From: an uncultured bacterium
Lineage (GTDB): Bacteria > Cyanobacteriota > Vampirovibrionia > Gastranaerophilales > Gastranaerophilaceae
Assembly (NCBI GenBank): GCA_950022695.1
Contig: CATLLN010000001.1
Location: 512,539-576,538, forward strand
DNA length: 64,000 nt
Direction: 5' to 3'
This document shows, piece after piece, positions 5,412 to 39,590 of this stretch. Every line of letters starts with the position of its first letter. Within the stretch, counting starts at the first letter, position 1. The translations under genes were made by a program, and so were the position numbers. The notes below the pieces were generated by a model. The model saw nothing but the letters and a program-made list of their open reading frames with translations, did not search any database and was not told where the DNA came from.

Positions 5412-5470
5412 GAAAGAAAGGGGTAAAGGGGTAAATATATACCTTTATCACCTGGAAAAGGAGAGAAATT

Positions 5471-6189
5471 ATGAAATTAACTAACAAATTCACAAAACGG
5501 GGGGGGGTAACCTTTATTGCCTAAATTCAGGCGCGTTTCAGTTATCTCCTTTCAAGTTTAACACCGGCTTCACTTTAGCCGAAGTTCTCATAACCCTTGG
5601 TATCATCGGTGTTGTTGCTGCAATTACGATTCCAAATCTTATTCAAAAGAATTTTGAACGGCAAACAGTTGTTAAGCTTCGGGAAACCCAATCTATCTTA
5701 ACCCAAGCTATAAAAATGGCTGAAGAAGAATACGGAGAAGTCCCAGGCTGGGGTATTACCGGTCCTGATGTACAATCTGCCAATCTGATTTTTAATAATA
5801 TTAAACCATTTTTAAAAATTGCATTGGATTGTGGATTTGATGACAGTAAAGGCAGATGTATGTATCCGAAAAATTATAAAATGTTAAACGGGCAGACTTA
5901 TATTGGCAATCATGCAATAGGTAATTATTATAAATTTCTATTGTTAAATGGTTCTGGAATATGGTGTCGCGGGGATGCTGCAGTATATTGGTCAATGGTT
6001 TGCTATATTGATGTAAATGGAAAATCTCAGCCGAACACTATAGGAAAAGATTTATTTGATTTCCATTATAGTAATGGTTCTATAGTTCCTGTAGGAGGTC
6101 CAAAAGATAAAAGATGTAATAAAAACGATAGTGGCTGGGGATGCGCATGGCAGGTTTTACATAATCAAAATATGAATTATTTACACTAA
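5471..6189 (+). CDS. type IV prepilin-like protein, frame interrupted at a nine-G tract (probably phase-OFF)
   Basis: AAAGGAGAG lies 6 bases before an ATG at 5471. That frame reads MKLTNKFTKRGGVTFIA and stops. The pilin frame (GFTLAEVLITLGIIGVVAA, 5572 onward) is one base out and has no ATG/GTG/TTG after an in-frame stop at 5482-5484, so it cannot be started independently. One extra G in the nine-G tract at 5499-5507 joins both parts into a ~239-residue prepilin with a ~34-residue leader, cleaved before FTLAE (Glu+5 present). The body (5716-6189) resembles the pilin at 34770 closely (VVKLR-TQSILTQAI, F-LKIA-DCG, NTIGKDLF, WGCA). Its role would be a minor pilin/pseudopilin on the surface. An assembly error in the homopolymer is the alternative. 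Confidence 0.8.
5499..5507 (+). repeat. nine-G homopolymer, putative phase-variation switch
   Basis: Nine G between codon 10 of the leader and GTAAC. As written the ATG frame closes 17 codons in; a tract of ten (or seven) G opens the complete prepilin. Long G tracts inside the 5' coding region are the standard slipped-strand contingency signal in host-associated bacteria. An identical tract sits at the same codon in the gene at 38821. Confidence 0.85.
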
Positions 6190-7022: not shown

Positions 7023-7712
7023 TTAGTGATTTCTTACGATTTTGTTAAAATAGGTTGGATCATTCAAGGCTTTATATGCACAAGTCATTCCATTAACGAC
7101 TTCTTTATTCGTATCACTACAATATTTATCAACCGATGCTGCAAATTTTGTTCCTTTATCTCCCAGTGGCTTGATTACTCCATCTATCATTTGGAATGTA
7201 AATAAGTCATGACCTGCAATGTTGGGAGGAGTCGTAAAACCGTTCAAATCAACAGAGATGAAAATTGTTTGATTATCAGCGTTTTCAAAGTATAAAATTG
7301 AACCGTCTTGTAATAATAATGAACCGTCATCAAGATACCCTGCTGTAAATTTATTTGTATTACTGAAATTTTTATAATCATCGCTGCCGTTGTAGCGATA
7401 TGTTCGACAAGGTTTAGGTCGTTTCAAAGCCGCATGACCGCAGTCAGTGCTTCCATTTAAGTATTGTTGAAAAGTTTTATAATAAGTTAAAGGTTTATAT
7501 GTAGCAGGGTCTATAGATATATCATCAGATTCCATACGTTTAAAAACTTGTTGGATTGTTGAATATGACTTTAAAAATTGTGAACGGTAACGTTTTGCTT
7601 TATATGTTGCAATAAGGTTAGGAATTGTCATAGCTGCAACAACACCGATTATCCCAAGAGTTATAAGTATTTCAGCTAATGTAAAACCGATTTTTGTATA
7701 CTCATTCTTCAT
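7023..7712 (-). CDS. type IV prepilin-like protein
   Basis: A 229-residue prepilin. I start it at 7712, where AGAAAGG precedes the ATG, instead of 28 codons upstream. The leader MKNEYTKIG is cleaved before FTLAEILITLGIIGVVAA, with Glu at +5 and a ~25-residue hydrophobic helix. The C-terminal domain has a D-L-N-G-x-x-x-P-N-x-x-G-x-D-L-F segment, the same core as the other pilins here, and scattered cysteines. It would be processed by a prepilin peptidase and built into a pilus or pseudopilus. No poly-G tract is present. It is divergent from the small HTH gene at 7837. Confidence 0.88.
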   Translation of the reverse strand: MKNEYTKIGFTLAEILITLGIIGVVAAMTIPNLIATYKAKRYRSQFLKSYSTIQQVFKRMESDDISIDPATYKPLTYYKTFQQYLNGSTDCGHAALKRPKPCRTYRYNGSDDYKNFSNTNKFTAGYLDDGSLLLQDGSILYFENADNQTIFISVDLNGFTTPPNIAGHDLFTFQMIDGVIKPLGDKGTKFAASVDKYCSDTNKEVVNGMTCAYKALNDPTYFNKIVRNH

Positions 7713-7836
7713 ATTTATATTCCTTTCTGTCGTTAAAATCAAATAAATTATAGTCTTACAATTAATAATTATATGTGTACAACTATAAAATGTCAATTAG
7801 TTTGTTTTTATCAAGCGTAGAGTATAACATAGAAAA

Positions 7837-38820: not shown

Positions 38821-39590
38821 ATGAAAATAACAAACGAATTAAGAAAGCGGGGGGGGGTAACTGCTTAAAGCTTATTTTAGGCGTTTTTGAGCTATCTCCT
38901 AAAAAAGCATTTACATTAGCTGAAACATTAATTACTCTTGGCATCATTGGAGTTGTTACAACGATTACTATTCCGACTTTAATGACTAAGATTAAAAATC
39001 ACCAAATTGAGACTGTATTGAAAGAGGACTATTCGATTTTACAGCAGATGATGATTTCTGCAAATGAAGAAGGTGCTATAAGTTCTATTCCAAAAAATAA
39101 TAATATGGATTTGATGCGTGCTTGGTTTGAAACTTATATGCTTCCATATATAAAAGTTGCGCGAGTTTGTTATGATGAAAAAGGTTGTTGGGCTGAAACC
39201 AAAAAACTTAATGGCGTAATTCAACATTCATATTCAAATTATCCGGGATGTGGAGTAAAATCAATAGGTATGGTTCTTAATAATGGAAGTTTTGTATGTC
39301 TAGATGATTTTGGTCCGGATCAAATGAAATCTGTATTTGGTATAAAAACTTCTGTAAGTAAAGAAGTTACTCTTGTATTTTATATTGATACAAATGGTAT
39401 TAAGCCGCCTAATGTATTTGGAAAAGATATTTATATTCTAGGTTTCAAAGAAGAATTAGGAAGATTAGTTCCTGCCGGAACAGATACTACAAACGCAGAA
39501 CAGGTTAAAGATTGCAGCAAAACCGGTACTGGCTTCTTTTGTTTATCTCTTGTTAAAAATCGCGGTTGGAAACTTGTTGATATTAAATAA
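38821..39590 (+). CDS. type IV prepilin-like protein, frame interrupted at a nine-G tract (probably phase-OFF)
   Basis: AAGGAGAG precedes an ATG at 38821. As written that frame gives MKITNELRKRGGVTA and stops. The pilin frame (FTLAETLITLGIIGVV, near 38910) is one base out. One added G in the nine-G tract (38849-38857) produces a ~256-residue prepilin with a ~31-residue leader ending SPKKA before FTLAE (Ala instead of Gly at -1, Glu at +5). The body contains D-T-N-G-x-x-P-P-N-V-F-G-K-D-I and four to six cysteines. Leader and tract match the gene at 5471, while the bodies differ. Located 29 bases after waaA and ending at a strong terminator. Confidence 0.8.
38849..38857 (+). repeat. nine-G homopolymer, putative phase-variation switch
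   Basis: Nine G starting in codon 10 after the ATG, the same codon and length as at 5499-5507. Adding one G (or removing two) restores the prepilin frame. The flanks CGGGGGGGGGTAAC are identical between the two loci. Confidence 0.85.

Follow-up and report, generated by a model that had tools for sequence, protein, structure and literature searches.

A G-tract module at the 5' ends of type IV prepilin genes in gut Gastranaerophilales: probable phase variation with a conserved OFF resting state

Is a type IV prepilin gene whose start and body are separated by a G-tract and one missing base broken, miscounted, or kept in that condition as part of a switch? This question is raised by locus 1 (5471-6189, forward strand) of the window, i.e., the whole stretch of 64,000 nucleotides analysed here. 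A Shine-Dalgarno (SD) sequence, AGGAGA (5459..5464), precedes the ATG at 5471 in the same layout as before other tract prepilins, and the ATG opens a 28 nt leader (5471..5498; MKLTNKFTK) that runs into nine G at 5499..5507, much as described in a sequence-only reading of this DNA. The ten codons which that reading placed ahead of the tract are in fact nine whole codons plus one base, since the tenth codon already holds two G. Behind the tract lies a frame filter (5508..5524), in which a TAA at 5508-5510 ends one wrong frame and a TAA at 5522-5524 ends the ATG frame after 17 codons, and the open prepilin body of 226 aa occupies 5509..6189, with FTLAE from 5569. The earlier description was also accurate in placing FTLAE out of frame by one base and in giving ~239 residues for the opened frame; FTLAE lies in the -1 frame, which is interrupted by stops further upstream and lacks an ATG, GTG or TTG start of its own.

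The body carries the prepilin cleavage and methylation motif, scores 23.3 bits against N_methyl (cut-off 21.2) and 23.3 against TIGR02532 (cut-off 16.3), and yields an AF2 model (mean pLDDT 90.6) that shows an N-terminal helix of 53 residues and a head rich in beta structure. A Foldseek search with this model gave no significant match; the best match in a second look was the PAK pilin of Pseudomonas (1oqw_A), at a middling Z of 4.9 (rmsd 3.5, 118 residues aligned) and with unrelated chains close behind. The anatomy of locus 1 recurs at locus 2 (ATG 38821, forward strand), where the leader (38821..38848; MKITNELRK), the G9 tract (38849..38857) and the frame filter TAACTGCTTAA (38858..38868), whose TAA codons at 38858-38860 and 38866-38868 end the two wrong frames, are followed by an open body of 243 aa (38859..39590) that passes TIGR02532 (17.6 over a cut-off of 16.3) and falls below the N_methyl cut-off (19.3 against 21.2). 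A tract-free prepilin gene with profile matches (7023..7796, reverse strand) is available in the window for comparison.

Runs of G or C with lengths 3, 4, 5 and 6 occur 351, 69, 9 and 1 times in the window, none has length 7 or 8, and two have length 9; with 0.006 G9 runs expected per 64 kb (first-order estimate), a chance homopolymer is ruled out. The genome as a whole contains 22 tracts with a length of exactly nine G; pattern and stretch searches throughout it found none of 8 or of at least 10. Eighteen of these tracts lie in the 5' ends of prepilin genes, whose bodies are all shifted out of frame by a single base and in one direction, a phase shared by a further prepilin with seven G (L064). 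There are thus ~19 tract-prepilin genes in this genome, nearly all with a leader of 28 nt. The other four G9 tracts comprise two C9 runs in unrelated genes, both in frame at nine (L016 and L060), one in a prepilin remnant that lacks a start (L024), and one between two cytidylyltransferase genes (L019). N_methyl matches number 76 at E ≤1, 68 of which pass the cut-off on their own, and the tract-free prepilins readable among the 30 best matches have an in-frame start, nearly always of the SD-ATG kind.

Some further features of this genome (G000) may be recorded here. It holds ~70 prepilin-like genes in 1.95 Mb, the majority of them without a G-tract. The 22 nine-G tracts lie almost entirely on one strand of each contig (C1, 8/9 plus; C2, 5/5 minus; C4-C6, 8/8 plus), which perhaps reflects replication direction. 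Three prepilins (L319, L325 and L326) have the FTLAEVL start motif in tandem duplicate, and the piece between the copies resembles a dispersed repeat, GGGGTAATATGCTACC.

The stops behind the tract are a consistent part of the module: both wrong frames end within 30 nt of the tract in 121 of 128 genes, against a proportion of ~0.38 expected from body positions, and in many genes of this genome it is TAACNNNTTAA that supplies them. Every exact copy of TAACNNNTTAARGCTTNNTTTA in this genome lies behind a G9 tract, a confinement that, together with the contribution of its stops to much of the conservation, led us to reject a free-standing mobile element; no match to the motif was found in IMG/VR viral contigs. 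Its copies in other genes, frames and orientation are explained only in part. The leader is an exchangeable piece. That of locus 2 is 99% identical to the leader of its paralogue L011, whereas the two bodies are just 26% identical; conversely, the orthologue of locus 2 in the sister species G044 has a body 80% identical and an identical upstream stretch, but a leader only 68% identical. These comparisons show an exchange of leaders between paralogues, which may add to the uniformity of tract lengths. Recent gene duplication is not enough to account for equal lengths, because paralogous bodies share a median identity of 33%. Prepilin processing is well established, and because the module lies upstream of the cleavage motif, it should be lost when the leader peptide is cut off, leaving the mature pilin unchanged.

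The same architecture was found in 31 of 146 genomes, representing 9 of the 36 genera of the family, while the reversed pattern had zero matches in these 146 genomes and 36 genera. Motif-bearing records include Candidatus Gastranaerophilales metagenome-assembled genomes (MAGs), a Melainabacteria MAG, an 'uncultured bacterium' MAG and one record labelled Muribaculaceae bacterium (JAMPCZ01, here G014); the latter is placed in the genus of the window and carries the tract prepilins, and its label is probably wrong. Leaders and flanks vary between groups of the family. Tracts in the assemblies of relatives range from 7 to 13 G, so that the single fixed length that would have spoken against a switch is not what is seen, and the commonest length differs by genome, being 8, 9 or 11 within the genus of the window and 8 to 12 across the phased set. 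This set comprises 206 tract prepilins from 35 genomes, all from one family of gut Gastranaerophilales. One gene (L289, G001:C62:333087) was excluded from the counts owing to a scaffold gap (NN) inside its G-run, itself a sign that the assembler had left the tract length unsettled.

Among the 206 genes, 109 need one additional base to be in frame, 81 need one base fewer, and 16 are in frame; the in-frame state is the commonest in none of the 17 genomes with at least three tract prepilins. The direction of the required change depends on length. With at most 10 G, the ON state needs an insertion in 94 genes versus a deletion in 22, and with at least 11 G, a deletion in 59 versus an insertion in 15; counted by genome, the rule holds in 9/10 and 7/7 (p=4e-4). 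Judged against permutation of lengths within genomes, the shared phase was observed in 143 genes where 126 were expected (p=1e-4) and the in-frame state in 15 where 33 were expected (p=5e-5), and after removal of edge changes the values were p=0.0005 to 0.002 and 5e-5, respectively, all of these p values serving as guides since there is no independence among related genes or genomes. The off-by-one phase is preserved where leader and tract lengths both differ. For instance, the leaders of G111 and G087 fall into three phases, mostly paired with 11, 12 and 13 G, such that all genes are off in one way, and the interrupted tracts of L288 and L256 retain the common phase. G014 is an exception, as nine G is found there behind leaders that differ in phase, of which there are two.

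That tract length sets the state of the gene is seen in close copies. Identical leaders in G039 carry eight G (off) in one gene and nine G (on) in another (L102/L110), and in G044 a ten-G gene that is on (L154) and a nine-G gene that is off (L159) have two differences in 68 flanking bases. The neighbours L390 and L391 of G065 encode one leader peptide, with ten and twelve G, and L017 and L157, which are orthologous, carry nine and eleven. Near-identical copies therefore exist as in-frame and out-of-frame alleles, and the ten-G genes with an open frame that were sought in relatives are present in G044 (L154 and L146). Bodies of sister-species orthologues are under purifying selection, with dN/dS from 0.09 to 0.27. 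This includes the G044 orthologues of loci 1 and 2, which are likewise off at nine G (dN/dS 0.15 and 0.27), and since selection is maintained although both members of each pair are off, the pilin proteins appear to be used.

Taken together, a repeat tract lies in the 5' coding region and its length sets the reading frame, as in an SSR contingency locus, and slipped-strand phase variation with a conserved OFF resting state is in our judgement the probable explanation of the tract prepilins. According to this explanation, the module that ~19 prepilins of this genome share, made of a strong SD, an ATG, a short leader, a G-tract and stops in both wrong frames, would act as a switch. Slippage by one G would join leader and body and turn the gene ON, and the usual length is OFF by one, mostly in the direction in which the tract tends to slip, namely insertion at up to 10 G and deletion from 11 G onwards. 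Each locus would then be OFF in most of the population, with a minority of cells expressing one or a few of the many pilins. We infer replication slippage as the cause, together with switching in living populations and a surface display that is of benefit. The sequence-only reading had proposed a phase-variable pilin captured OFF. It is partly borne out by the other lengths in relatives, by the ten-G genes of G044 and by L102/L110 of G039, all of which tie length to ON or OFF, and reversible switching within a population is presumed; the gene is indeed OFF, and the word "captured" understates the matter, as genes of this class are usually OFF by one throughout a bacterial family. What counts against the explanation is the equal length of the 18 nine-G prepilins, for a neutral equilibrium at C. 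jejuni rates puts only 43% of tracts at nine, which gives 5e-7 for 17/17, and also the point at which the direction changes over, 10-11 G in these genes but 9-10 G in C. jejuni.

The most serious alternative turns the resting state into the working one: ribosome or RNA polymerase would slip at the G-tract during expression, dozens of pilins per genome would be expressed to some extent from off-by-one DNA, selection would hold the phase, and slippage of the DNA would be a second, rarer layer. A phase that is maintained despite differing leader and tract lengths, and even in the interrupted tracts of L288 and L256, would follow naturally, as would the conservation of bodies that are out of frame in both sister species, and the slippery heptamer of a -1 ribosomal frameshift, G_GGG_GGG, is present in the initial ATG frame of the genes needing an additional base, including the seven-G L064. 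One shift does not serve all members, however: in 81 of the 206 genes the shift would have to go the other way, and in 16 none is needed, which is unlike a single ribosomal mechanism and led us to reject ribosomal frameshifting in one direction. RNA polymerase slippage in both directions is possible, but DNA tract lengths vary between close copies, and we regard expression from out-of-frame genes as unlikely.

Lower still do we rate neutral drift, in which tracts would sit at equilibrium lengths, with no selection on phase, and out-of-frame genes would be inactive in most cells. The tracts outside intact prepilins of this genome (L016, L019, L024 and L060) also number nine, and G014 has nine G with two leader phases, as drift would allow; the permutation tests, the lack of any genome mainly in frame and the conserved bodies nevertheless make it very improbable. 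A neutral slippage equilibrium alone fits poorly, 17/17 at nine being improbable at published rates and length tracking leader phase. Finally, true tracts might be in frame and merely miscounted in sequencing or assembly, an idea prompted by every long G tract of this assembly reading nine. Yet nine keeps the frame in the C9 runs of two unrelated genes of the same assembly, lengths of 7 to 13 are read in other assemblies, with genes off both ways, and it is implausible for a miscount to bypass the in-frame length in 17 assemblies. The homopolymer error against which the base call was to be checked is thus hardly credible, and the in-frame C9 controls and the varied lengths of relatives make an undercall unlikely.

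Tracts are also found apart from prepilins. L019 (G000:C4:30535) and its G044 counterpart L136 have G9 with the same flank, nine in both species; the upstream cytidylyltransferase gene ends just past the tract, and another length would carry its frame to the next ATG (ATGA overlap), making a switch of translational coupling possible. L016 and its G044 orthologue L158 encode an unrelated protein and have a C9 on the coding strand, which at nine is in frame in either species; the flank resembles the tract motif in reverse orientation. Genes of relatives with signal-peptide-like N-termini (VTLKALSxAALA; L067, L094 of G003, L093 of G001, L184, L187 and L188 of G010, L199 and L200 of G040) share the G-tract of the prepilins together with its flank but use a different frame for both, and some of these genes are in frame and others out; in relatives, the switch extends beyond pilins. 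A second dispersed repeat of relatives, a G-run of variable length followed by TAAATGTTGCTACC (L068, L080, L082, L086 and L197), is mostly intergenic, and some pilin leaders contain insertions of similar pieces.

G-tract phase variation as such is already known. In Neisseria, type IV pili are varied by a G-tract in pilC and by gene conversion of pilE. The likeness lies in type IV pili being varied by a G-tract and recombination; in Neisseria, however, the tract sits in an adhesin gene and conversion changes the body of one pilin, whereas here each pilin gene has its tract and exchange affects the leader instead of the body. The closest known case is the pilus G-tract of Bifidobacterium breve UCC2003, in which bbr_0113 usually has G11 or G12 and is OFF, and the minority with G10, which is ON, is ~10x more frequent in mice (PMC9187656). 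In bbr_0113 and bbr_1889 (PMC9187656), as here, a coding G-tract lies in a pilus gene of a gut commensal, but these are two sortase-dependent loci, in contrast to type IV prepilins that can occupy dozens of loci in one genome, and only here are there a common leader, exchangeable and equipped with stops, and a usual phase that varies with tract length across genera. C. jejuni shares coding G-tracts of 7 to 13 and a length-dependent bias between insertion and deletion, with up to 29 poly-G loci per genome (PMC8224891, PMC4965091, PMC6321876). Its slippage is biased to insertion at G8-G9 and to deletion at G10-G11 (PMC8224891), so that the direction crosses over at 9-10, near but not identical to the 10-11 observed here. 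The genes with tracts are diverse in that species (zero words starting with 'pilin' occur in the PhasomeIt paper used for this comparison), unlike the one gene class, common module and mostly OFF-by-one assembled states of the present set.

A full-text literature search found no published report of phase variation in Gastranaerophilales, and what is new here is the scale, the type IV prepilins, the shared, stop-bearing and exchangeable leader, and a usual phase tuned across genera. The arrangement looks like an organised design, in which a single slip, in the direction that slippage favours, would take a gene from its usual state to ON across uncultured gut genera, and it yields a testable rule on how contingency loci are tuned. 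It also suggests that these commensals possess a large hidden repertoire of surface pilins, in genes that standard annotation would label as broken.
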